From the NCBI GenBank assembly GCA_026770025.1, contig JAMXDE010000006.1, positions 930,001-994,000 on the forward strand: a stretch of 64,000 bases of DNA, in the 5' to 3' direction. The notes below the pieces were generated by a model. It did not search any database. It was not told where the DNA came from and was given only the letters and a program-made list of their open reading frames with translations. The position numbers and the translations under genes were made by a program. Origin of the DNA: Craspedostauros australis (lineage: Eukaryota > Bacillariophyta > Bacillariophyceae > Mastogloiales > Achnanthaceae). Each line of letters starts with the position of its first letter. The first letter of the stretch is position 1. This document shows positions 3,597 through 57,393 of the stretch, one piece after another.

Positions 3597-5750
3597 TTAG
3601 TCCAGGTCTTCCATGTCAACATCGACTGCGGGCGCAGCAACCGGTTTGGCAGTCTCTTTGGCTTCCTCATTCTGTGAAGAAGCATCAGTCTTCTCCTTCT
3701 TGTCGCTCTCCGCATCCGTCGTTGGCGGCGGGGGTGGGACGAAGGCTTGTGGTGGTGGTGTGATGACAGTGGGCGCTTCGACATCGTCGGTCGCTGCTTG
3801 ATCCGTTGGCGCCGCGTGCTCGTCATACATGCCTTCCTCGGATGAGACGCCGTAGATGAAGCAGACACAATTGCAGTAGATGAGACTGAAAACAAGGAGG
3901 AAAGGGAAGAGGATCCAAAATGTATTGAACCCGACATCGTTGCTGCCCGTGCTTTCAGTTGCTGCCTCCAGCTTGGCGACAATCAGACAGAGGATCGTCA
4001 ACTGAGCGGTGGCGATGCAGCAATTGGCTCCTGCCGCTGCCTGCTTTTGGACAGCGTCTTCCTCCGCCTTGGCGTACGCTGACTGGAAGGCCCGGAAGGT
4101 ATCCGCGTCGATGCCAATGTCATCATCGTCGTCGTCTTTGACTTCTTCGCCATCATCATTTCCATTGTCGGGTTTGGATTTCTTCGTCTTCTTTTCTGTT
4201 GCCGCTGCAGAGTTGCTTGCGCCATCTTTCGTTTCGCTTCCGGTCGTAGTTTTCCGACCGGAACTGACATCGCCTACAACGGTATCAAATCCAACCGAGT
4301 CTTCTCTCACATTCCTGGGAATGCCCTTGCGATGCTCCCCTGTCTCTTCGTCCTCCTTCGATGATTCCTCCTCGGCTTTGCTGGCGTTTTGAGTGACGTC
4401 GATCGGTGCCGCGTCGGCCTGCTCTTCGTCATTTTCATTCTTCTTCTTCGAGTCGTCGTCGTTGCCTCCCTCACCTCCTTCCGCCATGGCCATCGGGATG
4501 ATGAGATCGTCGGCGTCATCGATGATGACAGGCATGAAGATGCACCGGAAGCAATTGCTGAGCAGACGGAAACCGACGTAGATCCAAAAAGGAATGAAGA
4601 CGACCCACCAACTCTCGTCCATCTTGCCATCGAGCTTGCGCACCAGCAAGATGATGAAGGGAGTGCCAAAGATGACCGAATTGGTCAAGTTGGAGAACGC
4701 GGAATTGTACATCATGATGGCCGCGTCGTATTCCGGACTGGATTCGATCTTCTGCTGCTCGGTCTCCATCTCCTGATCTGCCTGCGTGTCGTTCTCGTCC
4801 ACGATGGGGTCGAAGTCATCCGGCACTGTGATGATGATGTATTGCGACAGGATGCGCCCACGTTCCGCCTCATCCTCGATGCTCTCCATGGAGCGTCCCT
4901 CGAGGATGACCGTCTCCAGATGATGGACGCTGACCATGCGCCCGATGTCGGTGCGGATCTGGTTCAGGAACACGCAGGCCTGGAACCAACGTACGAGCAT
5001 GGCCAGGTAGGCCGGTGTGAGGAGCTTGCGGAACGGCTCCGTCCGCCGTGATGGACCGTCGTCCCACGCGTTGGCCAGCACGGCCACGGTGGTCAACCAG
5101 AGCAGGTGCTCCACGACGCCCGCGCACAGGGATATCTTGACATTGCCGGCCGGCACCATCGCTGCCAGCAGACACTGAAGGAGGATGTAGAGCGAGTGCA
5201 AGATCCAGTACGGCGCCAGGATAGCGGTCCACTTGGAGTCCTCGAGGTCGTCGCCATCATCCGCGAGGGCGTGGTTGATCTTCGTCGCGATGAGGATGGG
5301 CTGAATCCAGAAGAAGGCCAGCACGACGCCCACGAAGAGCACGAGCCGCGTCTTGTCGCTGAAGGAGGCTGCCGCCAAGTTCTGGTGCACGGCCGGGAAG
5401 TTGCTGAGCCCGTTGCGTTGCACGACGAATCGGTATCGCTCCGGTGCGCACTGCAGAGCGTGATACTTGCTGCGCTTCTCGTCGTTGACCAGCACGTGGT
5501 ACGCCTCCTGCACCTTCTCGTACTGGGCGGCGGCCTCGTCTCGCGTGGCTTGGTCCGCGCCGCGCTGCGCCACCTTGTCGGGGTGCAGCTGCAAGGACTT
5601 CTTCTTGTAGGCCTTGCGGATGGCTTCGTTCGAGGCGGATTTTCCGCCGGAGACTCCGAGGACGTCGTAGAAGTCCTGATCCTCAGGATCGATGGGCGGC
5701 AGCAGCGCTGAGCACACGTGCGTCAGGAAGAACAACGACAAGTCCGGCAT
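3597..5750 (-). CDS. J-domain (DnaJ) multi-pass membrane protein, TMEM185-like
   Basis: Single-exon gene of 717 residues. An N-terminal hydrophobic segment (about 4-18) is followed by a J-domain at about 24-102 with the HPD tripeptide (LHPDKV) that stimulates Hsp70 ATPase. Then come several hydrophobic segments (near 133-155, 178-220, 360-400, 575-595, 605-635). The paired WxxxLxPxWI-type segments (WTAILAPYWI, WWVVFIPFWI) resemble the TMEM185/Tmemb_185A family; that part is inferred from pattern only. An acidic, low-complexity region (about 415-570) and a poly-Pro, acidic C-terminus are probably disordered. By analogy with membrane J-proteins it could recruit Hsp70 to the ER or another endomembrane; topology is not resolved. 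ATG 5750 is the only start giving a full J-domain. Confidence 0.82.
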   Translation of the reverse strand: MPDLSLFFLTHVCSALLPPIDPEDQDFYDVLGVSGGKSASNEAIRKAYKKKSLQLHPDKVAQRGADQATRDEAAAQYEKVQEAYHVLVNDEKRSKYHALQCAPERYRFVVQRNGLSNFPAVHQNLAAASFSDKTRLVLFVGVVLAFFWIQPILIATKINHALADDGDDLEDSKWTAILAPYWILHSLYILLQCLLAAMVPAGNVKISLCAGVVEHLLWLTTVAVLANAWDDGPSRRTEPFRKLLTPAYLAMLVRWFQACVFLNQIRTDIGRMVSVHHLETVILEGRSMESIEDEAERGRILSQYIIITVPDDFDPIVDENDTQADQEMETEQQKIESSPEYDAAIMMYNSAFSNLTNSVIFGTPFIILLVRKLDGKMDESWWVVFIPFWIYVGFRLLSNCFRCIFMPVIIDDADDLIIPMAMAEGGEGGNDDDSKKKNENDEEQADAAPIDVTQNASKAEEESSKEDEETGEHRKGIPRNVREDSVGFDTVVGDVSSGRKTTTGSETKDGASNSAAATEKKTKKSKPDNGNDDGEEVKDDDDDDIGIDADTFRAFQSAYAKAEEDAVQKQAAAGANCCIATAQLTILCLIVAKLEAATESTGSNDVGFNTFWILFPFLLVFSLIYCNCVCFIYGVSSEEGMYDEHAAPTDQAATDDVEAPTVITPPPQAFVPPPPPTTDAESDKKEKTDASSQNEEAKETAKPVAAPAVDVDMEDLD

Positions 5751-20471: not shown

Positions 20472-21091
20472 CGATGTGAAGAACCTCATTGCGAAATCAA
20501 ACATGGACAAATTGACTGTCCGACATAACGTCCGTACTGAAAGTGCCTTAATTCAAATTGCCTCAACTCTTCGCATGAATGCGCGCCAGATGATCACCAA
20601 AACCTGGTCACATTTTTTGGTGATAAGTCGTGTGATCTCGGAACAATCGTGCGCCACACAAAGATTGTTGCTTCCACGCCAAAAGGCAGAAGATCCCACG
20701 CGATGTCATGTCATGCCATGTCATGTGACACGAAGTGAAGTGATGCAAGGTGATGTGATGTTCCGATGGAGCATCATGCCACAGTAGTTGCTGATCCATG
20801 GCAATAGCAACCTATGTTACATCTAATTGCAAGGTCAATGACGACGCCGAGGACAACGGCAATCACAAGACCAACAACAAGAGACGTATTCGAGACATAA
20901 ATCCCAAACATCTCCAACAATCATTCAACCATCGGTGCAGCACACAATCGAGCTCGCTACACCGCAGCAACAACAAAAGCAATCGCAATAGCAGCGGTAA
21001 CTTCGTTAGCGGCTATCGTCCACCACACAGCCAACTCACGATCATTGATCCGCCAGCAACAACTACAACACCAACAAGAGCACCGACACTG

Positions 21092-24000
21092 ATGATGAAG
21101 AGCGTTATGCATTCGGCAGCAGCCATCATGCTGCCATTGCTTGCATCCCCGATGCTTTCGACTGCGCAAGAAATCGGAACAGACATCTGCGCTTGCTCGC
21201 CAAGCTTCTACAGATTCAAGATCGACTTCGACATGGTCTGCCCACCAAGCAACGCCACCATGAACAACGGCGTCAAGGAAATCCGATGCTTCATCAACCC
21301 CTACCTCGATGATGACGTGCAGAACTTGGTGCCCGTCAACGGGACGAAGATCGAAATCATCGAGCTTGATCAGAACTTCCGCCCGCTGGTCAAGGACGTG
21401 CGCGAAGGAGAGTTCGAGGATGGATTCGAATTTGAATACTCTTCGCTCTCTGCTCTTTCGGACCAGATCATGGACATGAACGACGTCCCCCGTGCACTTC
21501 AGATTGACGTCCTAGCAGACAACGACGAGCAGGAATCCATCATCAATCTTCTCACGATCGTTTTCAACAACGAATGCGGAGCATTCCCAGTCCTCAACGC
21601 AGGTGACAGCGTTGGCTGGATCACAATCGTAAGTACGGCCAACGATGGGTTTCTTGTGCGAGCGATCGCGCCGCGTCGCATTGCAGTGTCTCAACTTGGA
21701 GGTTGCGCGCACCCCGCATCAACTCGCAATGCTTCGTTTTGATTTGTTGCTGTGGTCTTTCATGGCCCAGATTTCTCGGGTTTCCAAATCTGATGAAGAA
21801 CGGTACTAAATCACTCATTCACTCACTCATTCCTCTCGCTATTCTTCGTCGACATCTTATCGTGCTATGTTGCATTTCCTGCCTTCACAACCGTCATCAT
21901 TTGCATTCGCAGGAAGAAGTGGGCAACGCACGCAAATCTCTTTGCCCGCTCTCGCCAGGGCTCCCAGCAACGAATCCTCCCACCATCTCCGCTGCGCCAA
22001 CCACCTCCCCGACCTCAGGACCAACCAAGTTGCCTGCCACGTCATCTCCTACCTACCAGCCATCCATGACGCCATCGATGTCAAATCCTTCCGGCCAGAT
22101 GTCTATGGCTCTCGGCGTCGATCTCGAGATGGATGATCCCGTCGTCCTCCAGGACGAGTTCGGCAGAGAGGACGAGACGACAACGGAGGTCACGGATGGA
22201 GAAGCCGCAGACTCAGCTGGTCGCACCACGAACCTCCGAATCCCAAAGACGCCACTTGTTGACAGGGACAGCTACGAACCACAAGAGCAAAGCAACGGAG
22301 GCGGCGACGTCCAAGGAACTGATACCGTTGTCACGAAGCCGGTTGGCACGCGCGGGAAGGTTTCCCGTGGCGACCCGAACTCGTACGAATACTACGACGC
22401 CGGTAACTACTACAAGAGTGGTGGCGGCAAGGGCAAGGGCAAGGGAAGCACGACTACATCCGAAGATGGCAAGGGCAAGGGCAAGGGCAAGGGCAAGGGC
22501 AGCAAGTCCAGCAAGTCGGACAAGACGACCTCATCCGACGATGGAAAAGGCAAAGGAAAGGGCAGCACATCTGATGCCTCCGAAGATGGCAAGGGCAGCA
22601 AGTCCAGCAAGTCTGACAAGTCCGAAGACGGCAAGGGCAAGGACAGCAAATCCAGCAAGTCCGACACTTCTGATGAAGGCAAGGGCAAGGGCAAGGGCAC
22701 TACATCTGATACTTCCGGAGATGGCAAGGGCAAGGGCAGCAAGTCCAGCAAGTCCGACAAGTCTGATACCTCCGATGACGGCAAGGGCAAGGGCAGCAAA
22801 TCCAGCAAGTCTGACAAGTCTGACACTTCTGATGAAGGCAAGGGCAAGGGCAAGGGCACCACATCTGACGCTTCCGGAGACGGCAAGGGCAAGGGCAAGG
22901 GATACTACGACAGCCCGACTACTACCTCCGGAGATGGAAAGGGCAAGGGCAGCAAGTCCAGCAAGTCCGACACCTCCGATGATGGCAAAGGCAAGGGCAA
23001 GGGCAGCAAATCCAGCAAGTCCGACACTTCCGATGACGGCAAGGGCAAGGGCAAGGGCAGTAAATCCAGCAAGTCCGACACTTCCGATGACGGCAAGGGC
23101 AAAGGCAGCAAATCCAGCAAGTCCGACACTTCCGATGAAGGCAAGGGCAAAGGAAAGGGTACCACATCTGATACCTCTCAAGACGGGAAGGGCAAGGGCA
23201 GCAAATCCAGCAAGTCTGATACCTCCGATGACGGCAAGGGCAAGGGCAAGGGCAGCAAATCCAGCAAGTCCGACACTTCCGATGACGGCAAGGGCAAGGG
23301 CAAGGGCAGCAAGTCCAGCAAGTCCGACACTTCCGATGAAGGCAAGGGCAAAGGAAAGGGTACCACATCTGATACCTCTCAAGACGGCAAAGGCAAGGGC
23401 GGCAAATCCAGCAAGTCTGATACCTCCGATGACGGCAAGGGCAAGGGAAGCAAATCCAGCAAGTCCGACACTTCCGATGAAGGCAAGGGCAAAGGAAAGG
23501 GTACTACATCTGATACCTCTCAAGACGGGAAGGGCAAGGGCAGCAAATCCAGCAAGTCTGATACCTCCGGCGACGGAAAGGGCAAGGGCAGTAAATCCAG
23601 CAAGTCCGACACTTCCGATGACAGCAAGGGCAAGGGCGGCAAGTCCAGCAAATCCGACAAGTCTGACACTTCTGATGATGGCAAGGGCAAGGGGAGCAAG
23701 TCCGATAAGTCTGATACCTCCGATGACGGCAAGGGCAAGGGCAGCAAGTCCGACAAGTCTGACACTTCTGATGAAGGCAAGGGCAAGGGCAAGGGCACCA
23801 CATCTGACACTTCCGGAGACGGCAAGGGCAAGGGCAGCAAATCCAGCAAGTCTGATACCTCCGATGACGGCAAGGGCAAGGGCAGCAAGTCCAGCAAGTC
23901 CGACAAATCCGACAGCTCTGATTCGGACTCAGCGGACGGAAAGGGCAAGGGCAAGGGATACTACGACAGTCCGACTACTACCTCCGAAGATGGCAAGGGC

Positions 24001-24447
24001 AAGGGCAGCAAGTCCAGCAAGTCCGACAAGTCTGATACCTCCGATGACGCCAAGGGCAAGGGCAGCAAATCCAGCAAGTCTGGTAGCTCTGACTCTGACT
24101 CTAACGACGGAAAGGGCAAGGGGAGCAAGTCCGATAAGTCTGATACCTCCGATGACGGAAAGGGTAAGGGTAGCAAATCCAGCAAATCCGACAGCTCTGA
24201 TTCGGACTCAGCGGACGGAAAGGGCAAGGGCAAGGGATACTACGACAGTCCGACTACTACCTCCGAAGATGGCAAGGGCAAGGGCAGCAAGTCCAGCAAA
24301 TCCGATAGCTCTGACTCTGATTCCGACGAAGGCAAGGGCAAGGGCAGCAAGTCAAGCAAAGACAGGCTTTTGGGAGAAGAAACGGTCGAGAGCACAGCCA
24401 ACATGCAGAGCACACCGATGGCTTCGATCCAGGAGGATCTGCAGTAG
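21092..24447 (+). CDS. Secreted Cys-domain protein with long Lys/Ser/Gly/Asp repeat tail, two exons
   Basis: Exons are 21092-21628 and 21913-24447. The 284-bp phase-0 intron (GTAAGT...CGCAG) joins GWITI to EEVGN. The product is about 1,023 residues. Residues 1-26 form a signal peptide ending near LSTAQ. Exon 1 then encodes a compact domain (about 30-179) starting ICACSPSFYRF, with Cys at the start, in CPP and near NECGAFPV, and ending DSVGWITI. A paralogous domain is encoded at 26493-27011 with the intron at the same point. Exon 2 has a Pro/Ser/Thr linker, then about 650 residues of DGKGKGSKSSKSDTSD-type repeats (350-997), interrupted three times by GYYDSPTTTS. The K-x-x-K and Ser-dense composition recalls diatom silaffin-type and other wall proteins; that is inference. 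An in-frame ATG at 20798 would add 98 residues before the signal, which the paralogue does not have. Confidence 0.8.
22426..24366 (+). repeat. Coding minisatellite (Gly-Lys / Ser-Lys-Ser repeat)
   Basis: About 1.94 kb of tandem coding repeats. The core is GGCAAGGGCAAGGGCAGCAA with TCCAGCAAGTC, giving units of about 11-20 codons built from GKGKG, SKSSKSD and TSDDG or TSDEG. Larger blocks (for example around 23100-23520) recur nearly unchanged, which indicates recent expansion by unequal exchange or slippage. All three frames and parts of the opposite strand stay open because of this composition, so the alternative frames are shadows. Confidence 0.9.
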
Positions 24448-26492
24448 GTTGACGCATAGATTTGGGCACAGCGCGCAATATCATGAGCATGGCCCCATCG
24501 GTCAAACCGTGCCCATCCGGCCACAATCGTCGTGGCAGCACGCCAAATCTCGAGCTTCCCCTCCTCGATCCAGCTCAGACTTGCGGGCATGAGCCATGCA
24601 GCACCCGCAAGCCAAGGATGAGATCCGACAACGACGACGCTCTTCACGCAGTCGAAGATCTCCATGACCAAATTGTACACAGGCTTGACGCCGGCCAAGT
24701 TCCACCGAAGCACACCAGAGAGCGGGACATGCCCTTCCATCGGGCAATTCTGCACGCCATAGATACACACGTGTTTGTATAGTATTCACATCCTCAAAAG
24801 AACAAAAGTTAACAAGTAAACCAATGAACCATTGAATCAATGAACAGCGCTTTGTTTCTTGCAGGTCCGAGCATATGCGGTTTCCGTGGAGCCTGGCAGT
24901 ACCTCGATCCACGGACATGATGAGGTCTCATCAGCTGATCAAATGGCTCGGTCGCAACAAGTATGAAACGATAGATGGTGCGTCGTGCGTGGATGGTGTC
25001 TGGAAGGATGACGATGCTGGTTGATCGTCGATCATCTTTGCCATATGAACGTACCGCATGCATGAGGATCGAAGAATCGTCTTGACGACCATCGTCGCGG
25101 TCTTGTCCATGACCAGGGCCAACGTGGTCAGCGTTGCTGGCATCTTCGCTTGCGCCATCGTCATCACTGCCACTGCACTCGTACGTGCCCATGAGTGCTC
25201 ATCCAGCTTGGGGTGTGGCATTCCATTCCATCACACCCTCCTGAGATAGAACCCTGAAGCATGATCCGCCTCGCCCTACCACAAGAAGGCCTGATAGAGG
25301 CACCGGCACCGGCACCCGCGCTCGTCCCCCGAAGCCATGTTGGCGCCCTGCTGATGTCGATCCATTCTGCAGCTTCATCCTTCACGTGGTCTTCCTACTA
25401 TTCCGCTCTCAATCGCTCAACCATTCAGCGATAGAGGCTTCTTTTGTTGATGGCCACGGATTTTGTTGATCGAAGACGATGGCTTTATGATCAACAAAAA
25501 CAGTAACGTGCAAACGATGGTCCACCAAGGGGCAATCAGCGATGGCAAGAGTACTCCTCGTCCTCTCCTGCCCCGCAGGTTGGCCACACCTCTCTCCAAC
25601 GCGGACGTGAGTTCGTGGTTTGAGAAAGGTTGCGATGGCGATCGAACCAAGAACGACAAAATCACGCAACTGAACGGAGACCACCGCCACAATTTGTTCA
25701 TCGGTTTGTGTGAGACATCAGGCAGAGCAGAGAGTTGGACGGTCACCAAAAAAGTTGACAATTACGCCAACACGACGCGCTCGATAACGGTCAGACATGA
25801 GAAATAGAACACTCAATCCTGTCGACGCAAATTTTTGTTCGTTGGCCTCATCTTTTTGGTCAGCTTCATCAAAAAAGGGAGGTTGTTTGCCTTGGATGCG
25901 CAAGGGAGCGGGATCAGAAGCCGACGCCACTGTGCTCATGGTATGTATGTGGCCTCTTCCGTCTTCCTTCTTCCACTGCCTGTAGCTACATCTCGGTTGC
26001 TGTACCTCCTTCTCTCCCGTCTCTGTCCGCCCAGTTGCTTGTTGTGCGAATAAACGCTGTTGGAGGGCATGTTGCTGAAGACACAAAATTCATTGCAAAG
26101 ACTCACGATCCGTCCATACACCGATAGCGCATACATCAGCTCACAAACCTCACGCCCTGCTTCCAATTCATCAACACCGTTTGTTTGGAGTTGAATACAC
26201 GAAAGATTAGCAATTGGACGCGTCTTTGAGAGAGAAGAACGAACAGAAACATCGTAGCTACCACCACCGCGGCCAACAACAGCTTCATCGACAGCAGCGG
26301 CATCAACAACAGTACTCTCACGACCACGAGATCAGCACCCATCACCGCTTTGCATACGCTCCTCCGAAATCTGTGGAGTTGATCTACGGCAACAACGACG
26401 ACGACGACGACGACGAAGAGGGTGCATTCGACGCAAAACAACGCATACAGCGCAACCCGACAACGAGACGAGCCAGACGCCACCATCACATC
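24448..26492. other. Intergenic region, no gene seen
   Basis: Spacer of 2.0 kb between the two paralogous secreted-protein genes. Frames of 60-130 codons occur on both strands without any domain or signal peptide. The last 300 bp (A/C-rich, with poly-Gln/Asp-like codons but no ATG in frame) are probably the 5' leader of the next gene. Confidence 0.5.
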
Positions 26493-28391
26493 ATGAGCAT
26501 CGCTGCATTCCTTTCGACGATACTGCTGTCGCTCCTACTGGCGCCAGCAGCCGCACAGGATGATGTGTGCGCCTGCTCTGCCAGGACGTACCAGTTCCGG
26601 TTCAACTTTGCTCTGATATGTCCTCCGATCGACAACCTTGATCTTCGCGGTATCGACACCTCCCTCTGTTTCGTTACGCCAGAGAATCAGCAAACAACCA
26701 CCGATCTGACTCCCATCTCCGTCGGTGATGTCACGATCCTAGAACTCGGGCAAGACTTGCGTCCCGTCAAGACCACGCTGCTGGATGACAGACTGTTCCT
26801 GAACGGAGACACGTTCACGTACATTTCCATCATTGATGACTCCGACAACATCAACGGGCAGCTACAGCTGCCGCGAGGTATCCAGATGGACATCACCGGT
26901 CTGAATCAGTTCGATCAGAACATCATCCAAACCCTTTCGTTCATTTTCACCAACGAGTGCGACCAATTCCCAGTCATCACAACAGGAAACAGCATCGGTT
27001 GGGTCGTCTTCGTAAGTTCAAACGAAACGCTGTACATGGCATGGCATGGCATGGCATGGCATGGCATAGTGCGTGTGGCGCTGTCCTGGGTTGAGAGTCT
27101 GATGATGATCGGTGAATGTGATTCTTTGTGTATGGTTGCGTCTGAAGATCATTGATTGGTCTTATCGATTCATTCCAAAACAACCTATTCTCTCAAAACT
27201 GCATTTGTTTCTTTTTCTGTTGTCTCGTCCGTTTCGCATCGCCAAACCTTGTCGAATGCACTGTGCCGCGACAACGTGCAACGCACAACCCAATATCTGA
27301 CACCGTTTCCATCATATGGCCCAAACTGCGTGCTGGATTATGGGACCGTCGGATGCCATGCCATCACGCGCCGCGCTGCCAATCACAACACCATCCAACT
27401 TTGGATGACACAACTGACGCACATCGCATTCACACTGCAAACTGCACTGCCAACCGCACTACGAACGCGATGGCCATCGCTCTCTGTCCCATGACGCCGT
27501 TTTGCGTACCCCGGCAACGACCGCGTGTTCCGGGAACGCACTCAATCCTTCCATGTCGGCTCCGTTCCATTCTATCTGGCCACGTAGGAAAATCTGGGCC
27601 CAATCAACGGAGACTTCTGTCCAGATGCCCCTGTCCCAACATCTGCACCGACCCTGCCGCCGACGTCCCAACCCACCAGCGCACCAACCTCCCTGCCAAC
27701 GGCCACTCCATCGGTCTCACCAAGCCAGTCGCCCAGCACACCACCAAGTGCATCGCCAAGTGCATCGCCCAGCGCAGCGCCAAGCGCATCGCCAAGTGCG
27801 CCGCCAAGTACAACGCCGAGCGAAATGCCAAGCGCATCGCCAAGTACACCACCAAGCGGAACACCCACGCGTATGCCAGTCTCAGGGCAGACCGACAGCC
27901 AGGCACCGACCGCTGGTACGCCGGCACCAACTGGCTCAGCGGCGCCAACTTTGTCACCTGTGCAGCAGACTATGCCACCGGTGATGATGTCCATGTCGAT
28001 GTCCATGTCCATGTCCATGTCAATGTCCATGTCTACGGACACAGCCGCCTCCGTCTTCATGGGTCTCGGCTTGGATGACCTGGACGAGCTGGAGGATCTG
28101 CTCGCAGACGACTTCGACGTTGCCGGGGAAGAGCAGAAGAACACCCAAGAGACGATCGCCATAACAGCCAGCGCCTTTGCTGCTGGCCAAGAGTTTGGAC
28201 GCGCCGCGTTCAAGGACTCCATCAAGCAGACGACGACAACGGCACAAACAGCCTCGGTCTCCAAAACAACGAAGAGCACCAAGACGCCCAAGATGGCGAA
28301 GGGGCTGAAGGGCATGCAATCACCGACGCATAACGCCGACGATCCAACGCACAAGGGATCCAAGACCACAAAGGGAGCCAAGAGACAGTAA
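26493..28391 (+). CDS. Secreted Cys-domain protein with Pro/Ser/Thr and Met-Ser repeats, two exons
   Basis: Exons are 26493-27011 and 27588-28391; the phase-0 intron of 576 bp (GTAAGT...CGTAG) joins GWVVF to ENLGPINGDF. The product is about 440 residues. A signal peptide (1-22, ending APAAAQ) precedes a domain at about 25-173 (VCACSARTYQFRF, CPP, TNECDQFPV, GNSIGWVVF). It is clearly homologous, with the intron in the same place, to exon 1 of the gene at 21092. Exon 2 encodes P-S-x-x-P-S repeats (about 185-285), a run of alternating Met and Ser (about 307-322), an acidic segment (DDLDELEDLLADDFD) and a Lys/Thr-rich tail ending KTTKGAKRQ. It is likely an extracellular or wall-associated protein made by tandem duplication and tail replacement. 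ATG 26493 is the first ATG in frame. Confidence 0.8.
27036..27065. repeat. (ATGGC)6 pentanucleotide microsatellite in intron
   Basis: Six perfect ATGGC units in the intron of the second Cys-domain gene, about 25 bp after the donor site. Confidence 0.9.
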
Positions 28392-31651: not shown

Positions 31652-34600
31652 ATGCTCAGACTCCGCTCTGCAATTTTCGCCACCTTCCTGATTGCCAACA
31701 TGGCAGTCGTCAGTGCGACCATTCAAACTCAGGCGACTGCAAAGCAGGGGACCGACGAAATCAAAGTGCAGGTTCAGTACAGCCGGACGCTGAAGGGAGA
31801 GGGCGGCGAGGGCGTGAGCTCGGCAGAAACCAAGATGAGCAAGGAAGGAAGATCTAAGAAGGTCAAGGACGACGCCGCCAGCCCAGAAAGCGACGCAACT
31901 TCGCCACCCACGTCGGCCCCGACGGTAAACCCAGTGCCTCAAGGGACCAGCCCAGAGCTAATCATCCTCCAGCCTGCGACACGAAACACGCCAACGAAAA
32001 GCCCTACGAGCTTTCCAACCAGCGCACCCACCAGCTCGCCGATAAGCAATCCAACGAGCTTTCCAACCAGCGCACCCACCAGCTCGCCGATAAGCAATCC
32101 AACCAGCTTCCCAACCAAATCTCCGACGAGTGCCCCCACGAGTGCCCCGACCAGCGCCCCGACCCCGGGCCCGCAAACAACCGTGGTGGTCAATCCGATA
32201 TCGGGAGTATCCAACACCGAAGACTTTGACTTGACAGACCCCGATGAGGCTGCGGCCACAAGCGAACCGACCCGCTCGCCGACTAAACCCCCGACGTCGT
32301 CACCGACCAGCACCCCAACGCGCTCTCCGTCGAGTTCGCCCATCAGCTTTCCAACCAGCACCCCGACCAGCACCCCGACCAGCGCACCGACCAGCGCTCC
32401 AACGAGTGCACCGGTGCATTCGCCAACCGCTTCCCCCACCAGCGGGCCAACTCACCTCCCAACCAGCGTACCGACGAGCGCTCCCACAGGCACTCCAACT
32501 CGTTCGCCAACCAGGTCACCGACGCGCAGCCCGACCTCGGCACCCACGCATCTGCCAACAAGCACACCGACCGGAGCGCCTACGACTACTCCAACTTCGT
32601 CGCCGACCTCTCGTCCAACCTCGTCGCCAACTAGCATCCCAACGACTACGCCCACATCTCGGCCAACGGCCCATCCAACATCCGCCCCAACCAGGGCCCC
32701 AGTCGACATTGAATCGACAGTCCAAGTGAGGTGCACTCCGGAGCCGAATGCAGCGCCCATGCTCGTCAACTGCAACATCAACATGAACTCCTGCGTCGAA
32801 TTGCTCGAGTTGCTTCGGGTGAATGAAGACCTTCGGGTGTTCTTCGCTTGCGCTAACTCCGGCAACGGATACGGCACCAACGCCCTCTTCAACAAGTTCG
32901 CGACGAGCCAGGTGCTCACAGACCATCTGAAGGAGCTGCACGAAGGTGGTATCCGGTTGTACACCGGACTTTCTGGAGCCGGCATTGAGTCGGCATGCGG
33001 ATCGAACTGTTGCCCGGCGGGTGCCTGCACCACGGCATCTGGAAATGGCTACATGACCATCGCTTCGTTTGCCTGCACGGGAACAGAATCCTGCACCAGC
33101 ATGGGTGATAGCCCCCTTGTCCTCGACTCCAGCTGCATCGGAACTCGTTCTTGTTCTTCAATCAACGTCAACGATGACACGGCGACACCCAAGATGAAAG
33201 GAATCACCTTCGTTGGTCACACGGCGTGCATTACCGACGAGGCCTGCCAAAGGGTCGGTGCATATTCTTACGGTGACGTTATCATCAAGGACAGTTCCTG
33301 CATGGGCAGACACGCCTGCAAGCACGTTGCCGCGCACAGTTCGCAGGTCGGGAGCGTCAAGGACCCTTCTGATGTCATGATCGGCCCGAACGCCTGCAAA
33401 GGCACGGATGCTTGCAAGCACGCTCACACGCAGTCCTCGGTCAAGATCCGCGGAAGCTTCATCGTCGAGCACAGTGCTTGCAACGGCAACAATGCATGCA
33501 AGGAGATGGGATCCAGCGACGTCATGCGCACGGACATCATCGTTGCTGCAGACACTTGCGGTGCGTATGAATGCGCAGAGTGCGTGAAGAACTCCATCTG
33601 CAACCCGTTCACCCAGATTTACAAGATCACGTCCGCGTCAGCATGTCCCAAGACTATGGCAGGCCTTTCGGCCATGTACGGCATCGGCACCTTCTGCGAG
33701 GAGAAGATCGACCAGCCAACCGAAAGTCCGACATTCGCTCCAACGGACAGGCCTTCGTCATCGCCGACCGACAATCCGACCAATCTGCCGTCCGCCAACC
33801 CGACATTCAATCCAACATCCGCGCCAACTTCTGCCCCAACGAGCGCACCGACCCTCAAGCACTCCGCAGCGCCATCCGAGACGCCGACCGAATACCCATC
33901 GTCATCGCCTACGTTGTCGCCAACCCGTTTCCGAAAGAACCTGGAAGTTGGATGCATGACCACAGCTGGCGACCCCTCCACGTATGCCACCGCAGCAATC
34001 CCAGCAACCGTGTACTGTGACTTGACCGAGGATCCATGCAACAGCTTCATCGAGACCATCGAAGCGATGGACATCAATGACGCCAACAAGATCAGAAACA
34101 TCTTCGGATGTGCCGTGGGAACCGGCGTCGCACTCGGCTTCGCGTCGAAGGCAGATGCCCAAACCCGATTCAATCTCGTCAAGAACGATAGCGCCGCAGT
34201 CGCCTCGTTGATCGCAGCAGCAACCTCCGGCGAAGAGCTCTTCACTGGCACAGGTCCGCTCGTAGAATCCGCCTGCGCGTCGAACAGCGCCGCCACGTGT
34301 TGCCCTTCCGGCGCCTGCTCCTTTCCTGACCGCATCGCCACCATGTCCGGCAACTCTTGCATCGGATCCAACTCATGCGACAACATCGCATCGAACGCCA
34401 TCATCATCGCCAGCTGTATGGGCCCAAATGCCTGCCAGAATCTGGGAACGCCCACCACCGCAGCCCACGTGGACGCCATCACCGGCCCCATTCTCATCGG
34501 ACCAAGTTCCTGCACCAGCGTCGATAGCTGCGCCGATCTCGGCGTGAACGTCTACGGCAAGCTCCACATCCGGGAATTCTCCTGCGTCGGCCGCAGCGCC

Positions 34601-34972
34601 TGCCAAGGCACCGGCAAGCGTGCCACGCAAGGCAGATTCGCCTTGAACCCCATCACAAGCCACATCCAGATCGGTCCCAATGCCTGCAAGGGAAGCCGCG
34701 CCTGCACCGGCACCCATTCCGCAACTGGCAGAATTCGCGGCGGCTTGGAGATCCAGGAAGATGCCTGCGATGGCGCCAACGCGTGTCGCGACATGGCCAA
34801 CACCGATGCCGCCACCACGGACGTGATCGTGATGCGAGACACTTGCAGGGCCAACCAATGCACAGAGTGTGTGCAGAGGCGGGTCTGCATTCCACGCCAA
34901 CAGGTCTACGTGATCTCATCGGCATCTGCGGATTGTCCCGTGGAGAACCCCGCGTCGTGTGTGAATAAGTAG
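31652..34972 (+). CDS. Secreted protein with PTSxPT linker and two Cys-repeat modules
   Basis: Single exon, 1,106 residues. The signal peptide is 1-22 (hydrophobic AIFATFLIANMAVVSA). After a basic, charged stretch comes a long P-T-S-x-P-T repeat region (about 85-352). Then come two homologous modules, about 353-685 and 760-1106, joined by a second PT linker. Each module has an N-terminal part with four spaced Cys, a CCPxGAC motif, then six repeats of the form S/A-C-x-G-x-x-x-A/S-C (for example SCMGRHAC, ACKGTDAC, ACNGNNAC) and a final CxxxxCxxC cap. Regular disulfide-linked turns in a solenoid are likely. PT-linkers are typical of extracellular diatom proteins. Function is unknown; surface adhesion or wall assembly are possibilities. 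It converges on the b5-reductase gene. Confidence 0.85.
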   Translation: MLRLRSAIFATFLIANMAVVSATIQTQATAKQGTDEIKVQVQYSRTLKGEGGEGVSSAETKMSKEGRSKKVKDDAASPESDATSPPTSAPTVNPVPQGTSPELIILQPATRNTPTKSPTSFPTSAPTSSPISNPTSFPTSAPTSSPISNPTSFPTKSPTSAPTSAPTSAPTPGPQTTVVVNPISGVSNTEDFDLTDPDEAAATSEPTRSPTKPPTSSPTSTPTRSPSSSPISFPTSTPTSTPTSAPTSAPTSAPVHSPTASPTSGPTHLPTSVPTSAPTGTPTRSPTRSPTRSPTSAPTHLPTSTPTGAPTTTPTSSPTSRPTSSPTSIPTTTPTSRPTAHPTSAPTRAPVDIESTVQVRCTPEPNAAPMLVNCNINMNSCVELLELLRVNEDLRVFFACANSGNGYGTNALFNKFATSQVLTDHLKELHEGGIRLYTGLSGAGIESACGSNCCPAGACTTASGNGYMTIASFACTGTESCTSMGDSPLVLDSSCIGTRSCSSINVNDDTATPKMKGITFVGHTACITDEACQRVGAYSYGDVIIKDSSCMGRHACKHVAAHSSQVGSVKDPSDVMIGPNACKGTDACKHAHTQSSVKIRGSFIVEHSACNGNNACKEMGSSDVMRTDIIVAADTCGAYECAECVKNSICNPFTQIYKITSASACPKTMAGLSAMYGIGTFCEEKIDQPTESPTFAPTDRPSSSPTDNPTNLPSANPTFNPTSAPTSAPTSAPTLKHSAAPSETPTEYPSSSPTLSPTRFRKNLEVGCMTTAGDPSTYATAAIPATVYCDLTEDPCNSFIETIEAMDINDANKIRNIFGCAVGTGVALGFASKADAQTRFNLVKNDSAAVASLIAAATSGEELFTGTGPLVESACASNSAATCCPSGACSFPDRIATMSGNSCIGSNSCDNIASNAIIIASCMGPNACQNLGTPTTAAHVDAITGPILIGPSSCTSVDSCADLGVNVYGKLHIREFSCVGRSACQGTGKRATQGRFALNPITSHIQIGPNACKGSRACTGTHSATGRIRGGLEIQEDACDGANACRDMANTDAATTDVIVMRDTCRANQCTECVQRRVCIPRQQVYVISSASADCPVENPASCVNK
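31905..32706 (+). repeat. Coding repeat, P-T-S-x-P-T linker
   Basis: Degenerate tandem codons for Pro-Thr-Ser-Ala/Ser-Pro-Thr with a 12-bp periodicity. One perfect 60-bp-scale duplication encoding SFPTSAPTSSPISNPT occurs around 32007-32105. The reverse strand is open through this region because of composition only. Confidence 0.85.
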
Positions 34973-40895: not shown

Positions 40896-42362
40896 TCAAA
40901 CCTTCACCCTCTTCACACGAAGCTTGGCATTGGCGTATTTCATCGTCAGGAAGTAATCCAACTTGCCTTCCGCCACCAATTCGAACTCGTACTTCAACAA
41001 GACACTGGGCAAGACCGAGTAGACTTCAGCAATCGCCAACGATTGGCCAGGGCAGCTGCGATTGCCCACAGCGAATGGAATAACACTCTGCACCATTTCC
41101 TTTGTCGGATTCTCCCATCGACCAGGTTTGAACTGAGTAGCATCTTCGAACACCATCTCGTCTCGATGGGCCGTGATCTGTGGAAGGAAGACGGTGGCAC
41201 CTTTCGGGATCTTGACCTTGCGGTTGGAAGGCTCATCAACCAAGATGAAGTCGCGGTTGGCGAGACGAGCGGAGATCGATGCACCAACAGGGATCACTCG
41301 TTGAGATTCGGTGATCACGCGCTTGAGATGATCCTTGGATTGTGCCGGATCATCCTGCAACAACGACTGTTGCAGTTCTCTCATCTCCTTGGGATGTTTG
41401 GCCAGCAGCACGAGGGTGTTGGCAAGAGTGTATCCTGTTGTATCAAAACCGGCAATGAGCAAGAGAAGCAGCTCCGCAACCTTATCTTTCTCGGACATAC
41501 TGTACGGGTTTGATTCAACCACCTTGATCAACGTGTTCTGCTCCGATTTGTTGGGATTCTCGCGATAGGCCATCAAGACCTTCTTCGCAAAGTCGTGCAA
41601 AGCGGAGCAGGATTTGCGCGCCACCCAGACCTCTGGGATCATCAAGCCGAATACTTTCCGCAAAGGATTGACGGCTTGACTGATGGCGAACTCACGTGCA
41701 GCCACCTCGAAATTGGATGTGAACAGATCGAAGTCTTCGGGAGTCGATTCGTATTCGAAGGCTGCCTCCATGATGGATTTGAATGCGACCTTCAGCAATT
41801 CGACGGAAGGATTGAACGTCATGTCGGTGTCTGCCAGCTTCTCGAGGAACTCTGTTTCCCATTGCTTGGTGTGTTTTGTGCAGATGGAATTCATCCGGCT
41901 GACTTCGTGAGAGGAAAACGAGTGCGCGACTGCCCTCTTCATTTGCTTGAAACGCAGGTCGAGTGTTGGACGTGTCGCCATTTGTTTGTGTCCAACCATA
42001 CCATCGAAGCCTGTGTATATGGCCATCGGCTTGTCAGTCGTCTTGTCGAGCAGAACTTCACGTTGATCCTTCGCGGAGCAGAGGACGTATGTGCCACCAG
42101 GGAGGGGGATGTTGTGCTGGAAGATGGACGATCCCAAAGATTCTCGAAGCTGGAGATGCCACCATGGCGATTCGGATGACGTTAGCATGTTGATAGACTC
42201 CATGATCCCAACAGGACTCTTCACGGGAGCATCCTTGGCGGGTGGTCTACTCAAGGCGACGACCAACCATCCGATGGCAAGCGCGAGCGGGAGAAGAAGC
42301 GCCGATGCGATGTTGTCTCGCAATTCCGTCGCAATGTCGAAGTCCATCGTGGTCGTAGTCAT
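40896..42362 (-). CDS. Cytochrome P450 number 1 of the array
   Basis: Single exon, 488 residues, a microsomal-type P450. An N-terminal anchor (about 20-42) is followed by the hinge PPAKDAP. The I-helix oxygen-activating motif is AGFDTTGYT (about 302), K-helix ESQR (ExxR, about 350), FKPGRW (about 410) and heme loop FAVGNRSCPGQS with the ligand Cys near 438. All catalytic residues are present. The start is the first ATG in frame (42362); a second at 42347 gives MDFDIATEL, matching its paralogues. The body and upstream region are most similar to P450-3. It needs NADPH-P450 reductase; the substrate cannot be told from sequence. Confidence 0.93.
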   Translation of the reverse strand: MTTTTMDFDIATELRDNIASALLLPLALAIGWLVVALSRPPAKDAPVKSPVGIMESINMLTSSESPWWHLQLRESLGSSIFQHNIPLPGGTYVLCSAKDQREVLLDKTTDKPMAIYTGFDGMVGHKQMATRPTLDLRFKQMKRAVAHSFSSHEVSRMNSICTKHTKQWETEFLEKLADTDMTFNPSVELLKVAFKSIMEAAFEYESTPEDFDLFTSNFEVAAREFAISQAVNPLRKVFGLMIPEVWVARKSCSALHDFAKKVLMAYRENPNKSEQNTLIKVVESNPYSMSEKDKVAELLLLLIAGFDTTGYTLANTLVLLAKHPKEMRELQQSLLQDDPAQSKDHLKRVITESQRVIPVGASISARLANRDFILVDEPSNRKVKIPKGATVFLPQITAHRDEMVFEDATQFKPGRWENPTKEMVQSVIPFAVGNRSCPGQSLAIAEVYSVLPSVLLKYEFELVAEGKLDYFLTMKYANAKLRVKRVKV

Positions 42363-52491: not shown

Positions 52492-55400
52492 TCACTCTCT
52501 CTCTCTCTGGATGCCTTGTCCCGGCGTCCCTGGTGTACCGTATCGTTGCAGCTTCATCACGTCGTCCTTGAAAGTGCTGACAATGTTGTTGATGATGTGC
52601 GGTTGGTTCACCCAGCAATTGGTTTCGTCGTGGTTGAAGTTGATCTTGCAACTGAGATAGTCTTCGAGATCTTCTTCCACCTTGATACCGAATCGCTTTG
52701 CCTTGATGTCCCCCACGAGGTCCTTCAGCTCCTGTTCATCCCCGATGCACAGGCAGTCGTTGACGTAGGTTCCGATCAGTAACAGTCTCCCTTCCTGATT
52801 CCGAATCAGGAGGCATGGATCCACCTTGCTCTGTCTGAATCCCATTTCGATCAGGATGTCGACCAGCTTCTTGTTCCATTGCCTGGCGCTCTGCACGAGC
52901 CTATAGATCGTCTTCTTGAGCAACAAGCATTCATCGGCCTCATGCCTCATGCCTTTCGGGCATTGCATGTAGATCTCCTCTTCGAGATCCCCATGCAAGA
53001 ACGCTGTCTCGAAGTCGATGATGATGCAGTCCATTCGAAGAAGCATCTTCATGGTTAGCATCACTCGGTAGGTAGCGTCGTGGATCACCGGTGCATGGTG
53101 CGCTGAGAAGTCGACTCCTGCAATCTGGGAGTACCCACATGCAACCAGTCGGGCGCGGAACACGCCGTTCCTCTTCTCCTTGAACACCCACTTGGTCTTC
53201 ACGCATCGTCGGTCGTCTGGCATCTCACTCTTTTTGATCTTCTGCCATACTCCTCTTCTGGCCATGTCGGTGAACTCCTTGTTGATAGCCCCACGCCACT
53301 TCTCTCTCTTCTCGGGATCAGCATGATCCCAGCACTCCTCGAACGTTGTTGGATCCAACATCACAGCCGTGTTGGCTTGTTCGGACCATTCACCATTCCG
53401 TTCGTTCTCAACATCCTGACTCGCAGCGATGAAGTCGATAAGTCTCATCCTCCCTTGGGTAGTATCAATCATCATGCTGGCGACGTCTCTGTTGAACATC
53501 GACCCATCTGTGTGGAAGTTGGGTCCTCCAGTAGCCGCGGGGACTATCATCGTCTCCTGCGCAGTGTCATAGCCATCCTCATCTCCTGATGCTGATGCTT
53601 CGCCTGCCTCCGATTCCGAATCCGATTCTGATTCTTGTTCCCTCTCCTCTTGGGGAATCGGTGAGTTGTTGTAGCCGGCCAGGCCACTCACTATTCTCGG
53701 TACGCGCGCCAATGGTCTCACGGGAGTGCGAGCAGTCGATTGCTCAATAGCCGAATCGATCCGCCCCGCACGGTCATTGTCCCTTCCGGTTTCATCGCCC
53801 TCATTATTGTACGATGGTTCTTCCCCTTGGGTAGGTAGCAAGTCATCTTGCTCGTAAGCGGTGTCATCTGTGTTTCCTTTTGTGTGTCCGGCTCTTCCGC
53901 TCCTCTCTGCGACGCCGATCTTCGCGTTCCTCGCGATATTCGAGCTTCGCCCCCAAGTCACTCTCTTTCTCTGGATTGCATCTCCAGTCTCAGAGTCGTC
54001 GTCATCCAGATCATATATCACCAACCTGTTGGCATTCTCAACACCCTTGAATTGCCCATACGACTGGTTCATCCATGTCACGTCTCGCGTGATTAGGATC
54101 CTTGCCGTTGCGAGGTTCATCATTCGGTATACACCGCTCGCATGTGACTGTCCGTATCCGACGAACATAGCAGGTTTGGACCGATCGTCCAGCTTCGCCT
54201 TTATCACTCGGCCTCCGATGAACACCATGCCAATCTCGCCGAACAAACGCAGTCCGTCCACGTATGTGGGTGTCTGCCCATTGAATAGTACGCAAGCCGG
54301 TTCTCTCGACTTCGTTCCAATGATGTTCTCGAGTTGCGTTGCTGTTCTTGCTGCTTCAGCCCATAGCTTTCCTCGTAGATGCTTTGGTAGGTGGGTTTGA
54401 TTGAGCATCGCCCTGACCTTTCCATATAGCACAGCGAACTTCCGTTCCACGCGACCATTCTGCTGTGGAGTTGAAGCTGCCGTGTATTCGAACGTCGGGC
54501 CGAATCCCTCCTTGAGTAGCTGCGCCTCTGCGCTGTAGTTCTCTCCTGCGTTGTCACATCTGATATTCTTGACAGTCACGTTCTGATTCGCCTTGAGCCA
54601 TCTCAAGAGCGACATCATCTTCGATCCCACTTCACTCTTCTCTTTGATGAAGTAGCTCCAGCAGTAGTCGCTGTAGTCGTCAATGATCAGGAGCCAGAAT
54701 TTTCCGCGACCAAAACTGTACGTCTGGACACTGGAGGTATCCATGAACAGCCGTTCGCCAACTCTGCTCGCCTTCGCCTGTGACATTTTTGACAAACATT
54801 TTTGTCGAGATTTGCCGATAGCACAGTCCTCACATGGATTCATTCGTCCTATGACATTCCATCCGTATCGCGCAGCAGTGCGCGAGATAGTGTAAGTGTC
54901 AACGTGGCCTAACATTTTATGGATTTGATTGATGTCGACCGCCTTGCCGGTGGACACACCAATGTTTGCCATCTCATGTTCGGCTGGGACCGCCACCATG
55001 TTCACGCCGGAAACGAATCCACTGTGAGTCGCCATGATGCGGTCGAAACGGATACGCAATCCGTTCTTCTCGAGAGCCATCACCACACCCTTGTTGCTGA
55101 TGTCGAATCCGCTTTCGAGTGCCTTCGTGATGCTCAGGAGGTTGACCCAAAGCTTGGGGACGAACTTCACCCCCTTGAGGATGATGATGACCTCCGAGCC
55201 ATCCTTCTGCATCACCTTCATGCGTTTGTCGCCCACCTTCGTTGCTTTGAGGTAGCGCCCGCTTCCCACCTTTACTGCGAAGCTCGCGAGGCGCACGTTG
55301 GTCATGCCCTCGTCGCTGTTGGTGAGATGGCACGATGCTCCCGAGTCGCCAAGCCAGGTGTTTGCCTCGTGGCGATCTGGCGCGATGATCTTCTTGCGTT

Positions 55401-57306
55401 CGCCGGCGTCGTACATGTCGCCGATCACCATGGCTAGTTCATGCGCATGGTTGTACCCGTAGATAGGCAACTCGTCGAACATGTGCCCGTCGCGCACGCC
55501 GTTGTCCGATGGATGGTGAATCCAGAGCAGGCGATCCGCGGCCATGGCGCTCATACACGAGATCAGGTTCTTCGGGAGTGGCGGGAGACGATTCTCCTCA
55601 AGCAAATCGTTGATGTCGATTGCCTTGCTCGCCACGTCGTATGCTCCGATCACGCCGATGGTCATCAGCATGAAGTACACATTCCGCACTTCCATGGGGT
55701 TCTCGTCGATGCCTTGGTATGCCTCCATCGCGTCATAGCAGATGAGCGAGAGGTCGGAACGAACATCGTTCGCAGGCATCACGTTGGACAGCGAGCATCT
55801 CACCGCATAAGGAGGGCTGTCGCTTCCAAGGATTTGGCGCCGTTGGAGCTTCTCGGCTGGTGTCACAGGCACGTCTCCCTTTGGTCCTCCTGGGATGAGG
55901 ATCAAGAATGGGCAGAACGGGCAGTCAACACACCACGAGAACAAAGGCCCTTTGGTCAGGCACAGTGGGCACCACGCGTTGTCTCTGTCCCGTCGAGACG
56001 CGGTCTCGATCAATCCGTCCATGTAGGAGCGGATGGGGCGCACGTTGTAAATTGGCTCTGGTCGCCTTGCTGAGGCCGTCGCGCGGAGGTCGATGCCGGG
56101 CATCGCAATCTCGTTGCTTTCGGTTTCGTCAGCTTCGCTCTCATTTTCGATGTTGCGCGCGATTTCTCCATCCTCTGCGATTTCGTGACACAACATCACA
56201 TCATCGACGGTGACCAGCGCGACGTCGTCCATGCTGTCCATCCCGTCAGTAGCCACATTGGCTGAGTCTGCGTCCTTCATCGCTGCTTTCAACTTGAAGC
56301 ATTGCAAGATTTTGTGGCCAGTCTTGCCACAGAACTTGCACTTGCCGTTGAAGCCTCCGGCGCTGAAGTTGCCGTTGTTGCGGTTGCCGTTGCTGCGGTT
56401 GCCGTTCTTCTTGGCGCCACCGCCTTGCTTGCCGTTGCCGCTCTTTGTAGGGGAGCGACAGTCCGCCTTCTTGTGTCCGTAGATGCCACAGTTGCGACAG
56501 TTGCCCTTGAAACCGCCGATCGCAGCCAAGGCCATCTCCTCCTTGCCATGGTTGCCTCCTTCGCGCTTAGAACCATGTTTGGTATGGTGGCGGTCGTAGG
56601 TGAGGCACACGGCCTCGCGGATGTCTTCAACTGTCATCTTGTCTTCTTTGCCTGCGAACTTGAGCTCTATGAGCTTCACGTCCATCTCGTAGTCTCTCCC
56701 GAGAGCGTTGAGTACAAGCATGTTGTATTGCTCGATGTCGATCTTCACGCCAGCATTCCCCAAACGGTTGCAGAACACCTCCATCTCGGTGAGGAACGAA
56801 TCAGGGCGCTCGCCCTTCTTCAACCGCATTCCGTTGAGTTGAGCCAACAGCTGCGCCTTCACTGGTGCAGTACGTTGCTCGTAGATGCGCTCGAGCGCCT
56901 TCCACGCCTTGCGTGGATCACCATCTTCGTAGGTACCGCTCTTGCATCCCAGCACAGCCATGAAGGCAACATTGCCTTCTGGAGTTTCATGGTTGATAGC
57001 CATGGTCAGTTCTTCAAACGCGTACTTCGCCAACGCCTTCCAGTACTCAGCCTTCTCCGTGTAGGACATGGCTGACACCTTCTTGGGTTCCCCCGTACCC
57101 GAGTCTCCGCCCGTCGTCGGGCCAAGACCGGACGGTCCAAGAGGTTCATCCTTCACCACCACGGCATCCGCAGCTTGGAGGTAAAAGTTCCCGTAGCCCT
57201 TGCGTTCAGCGCGGGTGAGGAACTTAGCGCTCCATGCGTTCCAGTTGGACTTCTTTCCGTCGAACACGATGGGGTAACGATCGGACTTGCCAAAGAAGGA
57301 GCTCAT
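52492..57306 (-). pseudogene. Copia gag-pol polyprotein (gag, protease, integrase, reverse transcriptase)
   Basis: Continuous frame of about 1,604 residues from ATG 57306. Gag has two CCHC knuckles (CRNCGIYGHKKADC and CKFCGKTGHKILQC). The protease active site is DSGAS (about 55331-55345). The integrase has an HHCC zinc region (HKMLGH...CEDC) and the core Asp, Asp, Glu (MDTSS, RCDNAGEN, PQQNGRVER). The RT begins AHHAPVIHDATYRVM and has DFETAFLHGDLEEEIYMQ. The RT catalytic box reads YVND (52756-52767) instead of YVDD. The frame ends early at a TGA after an AG run (52492), cutting off RNase H. It is treated as a damaged gene: the product could still supply gag and integrase. Confidence 0.9.
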
Positions 57307-57393
57307 GATGATGGTGGTGGTAAGGGTGATGGCGAGTGTTGCTGTGCTGATGGTGGTAGAAACGTAGGATTTCAATCGTAACGTTTCGAAACG

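Follow-up and report, generated by a model that had tools for sequence, protein, structure and literature searches.

An uncatalogued six-cysteine domain ahead of diverging low-complexity tails in a small family of putatively secreted proteins of the diatom Craspedostauros australis

The functional parts of diatom wall proteins are of low complexity and evolve fast, which makes these proteins hard to find. Among the cysteine-containing wall proteins of diatoms are the frustulins and pleuralins, with repeated acidic Cys-rich or PSCD domains, while SiMat7, which is compared below, we take to be silicanin-1. Silaffin-like proteins (SFLPs) are described as carrying a signal peptide together with KXXK repeats, clusters of lysines and PT repeats (PMC5501833). 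KG-repeat diatom proteins emerged from a screen for candidate adhesion proteins and the KG-repeat protein AC3362 of Amphora coffeaeformis was placed in the cell wall by the same paper (PMC4220933). Here two genes, A (21092-24447) and B (26493-28391), both on the + strand, are described from a 64,000-nucleotide window of the Craspedostauros australis genome (assembly GCA_026770025.1, contig JAMXDE010000006.1, forward-strand positions 930,001-994,000). They appear to be two of eight members found of a secreted-protein family of a silica-using alga, in which a six-cysteine domain stands ahead of low-complexity tails that would have diverged in place.

With splice sites set from the sequence alone, the model of each gene comprises two exons and a single phase-0 intron, giving precursors of 1023 (A) and 440 (B) residues. 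A hydrophobic N-terminal stretch, seen in the sequence and in a Kyte-Doolittle scan, lies ahead of the domain in both; in A an in-frame ATG is also present upstream at 20798, with the start at 21092 putting the signal-peptide-like stretch first, as in B. Exon 1 of A (21092..21628) encodes this start and Cys1-Cys5 of the domain and ends in GWITI followed by the phase-0 donor GTAAGT, and exon 1 of B (26493..27011) has the same content with the end GWVVF and an identical phase-0 donor. The two exon-1 products form one common domain (34% identity) with CACS, CPP, NECxxFPV and GW in both heads, and their likeness is far beyond chance, reaching E 5.5e-27 with A and 8.6e-27 with B as query against the whole 74.8-Mb assembly of 90 contigs. 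The positions of the two genes and the common exon-1 domain proposed in an initial annotation of the sequence were confirmed.

Genome searches with each of four single members returned the same eight genes, a number that is a lower bound as to very diverged copies. In addition to A and B these are C46g1 (C46:179.6-180.1k), C46g2 (C46:175-176k), C46g3 (C46:77.5-78.7k), C2 (C2:3574k), C4x (C4:2498k) and C4y (C4:1179k). C4x and C4y are near-identical, such that there are seven distinct members, and this pair is the only one resolved in a tree of the heads. The alignment of all seven distinct members has six invariant cysteines and a single invariant tryptophan. The whole precursor holds exactly six cysteines in six of the eight genes, and the additional cysteines of C2 and C46g3 fall outside the domain. 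The C4 members (C4:2498.2-2498.9k, examined as L005 and L026, and C4:1178.8-1179.5k, L006 and L027) are intronless and lie 1.3 Mb apart on the same contig, their sequences diverging shortly after the stop; retrocopying, segmental duplication and loss of the tail by a stop are candidate origins.

The intron had been read as separating a conserved head from an exchangeable tail, directly at the end of the domain, as in exon shuffling. Its phase and its common position, with GTAAGT donors, were upheld, the junction following the tryptophan plus three codons, but its place at the domain end was not. On the gene models the intron is within the domain, Cys1-Cys5 being encoded upstream and Cys6 in exon 2, ten codons past the junction. 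In A the intron (21629..21912, GT..AG, 284 bp) precedes ten residues and Cys6-Pro (EEVGNARKSLCP; 21913..21948), which close the domain, and in B a longer intron (27012..27587, GT..AG, 576 bp) precedes the corresponding segment (ENLGPINGDFCP; 27588..27623), likewise of ten residues and Cys6-Pro. The same junction and the same ten-codon distance to Cys6 were found in all six intron-bearing genes, and C4x and C4y, with no intron at the site, keep the ten-residue spacing. As six of the eight precursors have six cysteines in all, the portion encoded upstream of the intron would by itself hold an odd cysteine. C46g2 and C46g3 have a further phase-0 intron in common within the head, which together with the interior position of the first intron indicates that the head is not a self-contained exon. 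The exon-1 frame of A reaches a stop at 21742 inside the intron, such that a retained intron would give a product without Cys6, while an in-frame TAG abutting the chosen acceptor in B and C46g2 makes an exon 2 start further upstream in that frame impossible. C46g1 has two in-phase acceptors, of which the chosen one fits the ten-codon spacing and the other would give six. A history in which the head, as a mobile phase-0 exon, became attached to tail exons of unrelated origin could draw on the constancy of the intron phase and position in six of the eight genes, but the conservation of Cys6 and its spacing beyond the intron helps to make it a highly improbable one. More generally, a conserved intron close to a domain edge does not by itself imply exon shuffling.

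Past Cys6 the precursors follow a layout of a P-T or P-S stalk (lacking in C4x and C4y), an MSM run in several members, an acidic segment and a Lys-rich part. In A the Pro-Thr/Ser stalk (21949..22104), with a short MSM across its end, leads to a linker (22105..22413) with an acidic patch and an EFGR motif, then to a K/S/G/D repeat tail of 649 residues (22414..24360) made of KGKGSKSSKSDTSDDG-like units, and finally to a short non-repeat C-terminus (24361..24447; DRLLGEE..., stop). In B the Pro-Ser/Thr stalk and an (MS)8 run (27624..28034) are followed by a C-terminal part (28035..28391) with an acidic segment, an EFGR motif and a Lys-rich end bearing lysine clusters. EFG[RQ] is present in the tails of A, B, C46g1, C46g2 and C2, five of the seven distinct members, and absent from those of C46g3 and C4x. 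None of 5000 shuffled sets produced a 3-mer that was common to all five tails and had two or more of its letters outside PSTAKGMD, EFG having been observed first and the statistics run afterwards, as was also the case for ALGVDL below. Local alignment of the sequences after MSM exceeded shuffles for B with C46g1 (p 0.013), B with C46g2 (0.006) and C46g1 with C46g2 (0.002), and pairing C2 with A, B, C46g1 and C46g2 gave p 0.088, 0.01, 0.005 and 0.222, respectively. As judged by these alignments the tails of B, C46g1 and C46g2 are related.

The tie between the tail of A and the other members would rest on the stalk, Cys6, EFGR and a trace of the hexapeptide ALGVDL. The in-frame sequence directly past the stop of C4x, though not that of C4y, is GSRLAALGVDLSE and holds ALGVDL, and the linker of A starts MALGVDLEM. 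Any 6-mer common to the tail of A and the 20-residue C4x stretch was found in 153 of 200000 shuffles of the latter, and ALGVDL is the sole match to the first 160 tail residues of A among 109680 six-mers from ten loci. The hexapeptide past the C4x stop looks like a remnant of a common ancestral tail. The repeat of A (S 26%, K 24%, G 21%, D 16%) is a tandem array with a main unit of 48 bp in 26.8 copies, and the stalk and MS run of B contain 12/24/36/48-bp and 6-bp arrays. Most of exon 2 of A is attributable to local tandem repeats, and repeat growth in place suffices to explain the difference between the tails, which may have diverged mainly by the gain and loss of short tandem repeats from a common ancestral tail.

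The MSM pattern had 34 matches genome-wide compared with four in a reversed control. Twenty places lie outside the family, and in the five of these that were examined (L070 and L076-L079) no PT stalk was found in the same frame. One of them, L076 (C13:1292-1294k), has a frame end, SSPSMSMSMSMSMSTLLWLDSLERELVESWLP, in which an MSM run passes into an acidic/hydrophobic end. This faintly recalls the MSM-acidic layout of the family, with no PT stalk or head in the frame. MSM is treated here as a simple repeat, its status as a recycled module being unproven.

Donors for the tails were sought in the genome. The tail of B returned itself and three matches at E 2.6 or worse, and the linker of A itself and 28 matches at E 3.95 or worse, neither being found on another head by a search insensitive enough to have missed related paralogue tails as well. 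Because the search with the B tail did not recover the tails of C46g1 and C46g2, a diverged donor would also be missed, and the lack of a donor is weak evidence against a mobile head exon. The repeat of A matched itself and then a gene on C21 at E 2.2e-14, with weaker matches on C1 (E 1.8e-8), C5, C77 and C2. The C21 gene (L069 1354-3999; C21:936.7-939.3k) is a long frame, running off the end of the stretch examined, with an N-terminal hydrophobic stretch, D-rich acidic tracts, PT repeats and KGKG/SKSSK modules, and from its sequence it is a silaffin-like candidate. No six-Cys head was found in the 4 kb examined there, and none of the four family searches gave a C21 match. An A-like K/S/G/D module in a secreted-looking gene in which no six-Cys head was found would speak for the joining of separate exons, as would the strong differences among the low-complexity tails and the failure of the A tail to align with the others. 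Against this, among the best eight DNA matches between A and C21 the short ones (27-39 bases) reach 90-96% and the longer ones (63-90 bases) 78-79%, and serine is most often encoded by TCC in A (69/171) and by AGC in C21 (26/53), such that a recent transfer is unlikely. With the intron inside the domain, Cys6 and its ten-codon spacing kept beyond it, the tails of three members related, EFG in five and most of exon 2 of A attributable to local tandem repeats, exon shuffling was rejected as the main explanation.

Turning to function, 88 matches to the silicon-transporter family PF03842 were found in the genome, indicating that the organism handles silica. Such transporters are typically reported in 3-5 copies (PMC10700740), with a range extending to more than 30 (PMC13403384). 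Here the family is very large: 28 uninterrupted frames cover about 480 or more of the 513 family positions and four more do so with internal stops, dispersed over many contigs. Among four copies compared (L051-L054), L051 and L054 are 97.5% alike over 3.5 kb including flanks, the other pairs being 92.6-96.2% alike over about 1.75-1.9 kb.

The features published for Thalassiosira pseudonana SFLPs and cingulins, as against their sequences, provide a close likeness, with a signal-peptide-like start, PT repeats, Ser/Lys/Gly-rich repeats in A, lysine clusters in A, B and C46g2 and an RXL tripeptide near the C-terminus of A; the six-Cys domain in front sets the present family apart from them (PMC5501833). 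As raw counts, RXL tripeptides occur in seven of the eight genes, B having none and A two in the domain besides the C-terminal one. The published SFLP screen is described as using an endoplasmic reticulum signal peptide at the N-terminus, KXXK gaps of 1-6, pentalysine clusters of five non-consecutive lysines in 12-14 residues and RXL as a cleavage site, with biosilica association as a further criterion (PMC5501833). Starts of such clusters number 16 in A, two in B and five in C46g2, a property of these three genes and not of the family, and among the four tails tested only B (2, p 0.001) and C46g2 (5, 0/2000 shuffles) were above shuffles. KXXK itself occurs once in B and in none of the six genes other than A and B. 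AC3362 and AC714 of Amphora coffeaeformis are similar in having a signal peptide, a modular build and KG-dipeptide repeats, but have Tyr/Lys-rich modules as opposed to the Ser/Gly/Asp repeats of A, and the main text describing them never mentions 'cysteine' (PMC4220933). SiMat7-like proteins are also diatom proteins with an endoplasmic reticulum signal and a conserved cysteine set, but the set described is of eight cysteines compared with six in all in A and B, and their C-terminal transmembrane domain has no counterpart in the Kyte-Doolittle profiles of A and B (PMC5501833), where the highest 19-residue value beyond residue 60 is 1.39 at residue 150 of 1023 in A and 0.89 at 317 of 440 in B, neither C-terminal. 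The single six-Cys domain is unlike the repeated domains of frustulins and pleuralins, the distinction being drawn from the general description of those proteins.

The reading preferred here, to which we give roughly even chances, is that of a secreted silica-wall or matrix protein family combining the six-Cys domain with ionic tails that diverged in place and were not swapped as exons. Each precursor would comprise a signal peptide, a compact six-Cys domain with probably three disulfides and a disordered tail, ionic in several members, with a stiff Pro-Thr/Ser stalk, probably glycosylated, usually standing between domain and tail. The domain would serve as an anchor in the cell wall or in the organic matrix of the wall, with the Lys-rich or Lys/Ser/Asp-rich tails contacting silica or acidic polysaccharide in the manner of silaffins, and by analogy a silaffin-type mode of action has moderate probability for the tails of A, B and C46g2. 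For a class of proteins so hard to find, a conserved Cys domain ahead of low-complexity tails offers a handle for profile searches and tagging.

A number of observations weigh against the silica-wall reading and the common descent of the tails. Once 3-mers of low complexity are admitted, one is common to the five tails in 635 of the 5000 shuffled sets. The post-MSM tail of A did not align significantly with those of B (p 0.28), C46g1 (0.15) or C46g2 (0.63), and over the 30 residues by MSM only two of six pairs passed (B with C46g1, 0.004; C46g1 with C46g2, 0.027), the other four giving 0.13-0.69. The initial description of the second exons of A and B as unrelated thus stands as regards alignment of these two tails and fails as regards the P-T/S stalk and EFGR common to both and, at the level of the family, the alignment of the B tail with those of two paralogues. 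The 50 KXXK motifs of A overlap (gap -1) or stand at least nine apart, with none at the gaps of 1-6 of the published screen, its 16 lysine-cluster starts are within the expectation from composition (p 0.18), and five of the eight genes (C46g1, C46g3, C2, C4x and C4y) have no lysine cluster. Given the KXXK spacing of A and the five genes without clusters, the family is not filed as silaffins. The structure model of exon 1 of B, made from a two-sequence alignment, is also weak (predicted local distance difference test, pLDDT, 55.9; predicted template-modelling score, pTM, 0.52).

The tails might instead bind acidic polysaccharide outside the frustule, in adhesive, mucilage or trail proteins, a possible but somewhat unlikely alternative. 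Mucin-like PT/PS stalks with polyionic tails would be fitting in a hydrated adhesive, C46g3 has a hydrophobic end that by eye may be a membrane or glycosylphosphatidylinositol anchor (Kyte-Doolittle maximum only 1.24), and the adhesion screen yielded KG-repeat proteins, although AC3362 was located to the cell wall in that same work (PMC4220933). The present data do not separate a silica-wall from an adhesive location. It is also conceivable, if rather unlikely, that the domain docks as an adaptor on one wall or silica-vesicle component, with each paralogue bringing a different polymer there, a K/S/D polyampholyte in A, an acidic then Lys-rich chain in B and short tails in C4x and C4y. Were this so, repeat slippage would retune mineral or mucilage chemistry with the docking part untouched. 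An ordinary cell-surface recognition or binding family, for instance lectin-like, in which the tails are mere spacers, is considered improbable.

That the head domain is undescribed had been suggested at the outset, and the searches found no catalogued family for it. No Pfam family matched the heads of A and B up to E 10, and across seven members four weak families appeared, each in one member only (best E 0.0073). Against the PDB, exon 1 of B found no match as a single sequence, and a profile search brought up nothing beyond a p53 chain at E 1.3. The head of B had no relative at E ≤ 1e-3 in the viral_contigs collection (seven pattern stretches examined) or the prokaryote genome_contigs collection (40 examined) and no match up to E 10 in plasmids; two records of one Gordonia phage appeared at E 8. 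A literature search found no description of the six-Cys head, which does not disprove that one exists. The domain fold is mostly beta in the low-confidence B exon-1 model, and comparison of that model with the PDB gave only middling Z scores, with GH2 beta-sandwich domains and Asf1 compared for fold; that a family is missing from this comparison carries no weight. In modest terms, this is an unnamed small family of an ordinary kind and not a new principle.

Downstream of B a secreted-looking gene (31652-34972, +) combines stalks of PT repeats (PF04886) with a match to DUF7640 at residues 883-987, and a Cys-rich stretch that looks similar by eye precedes the match; A, B and this gene form a local run of stalked Cys-domain genes. 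Neither DUF7640 nor PF24646 was named in any paper found by literature search. Elsewhere in the window, six frames matching cytochrome P450 lie on the - strand between 40896 and 62279 (at 40896, 43600, 45664, 49249, 58555 and 60798), interspersed with a copia-type retrotransposon frame (52492-57375), and a frame at 3597-5750 (-) carries a DnaJ domain besides a weaker match of TMEM185 type.

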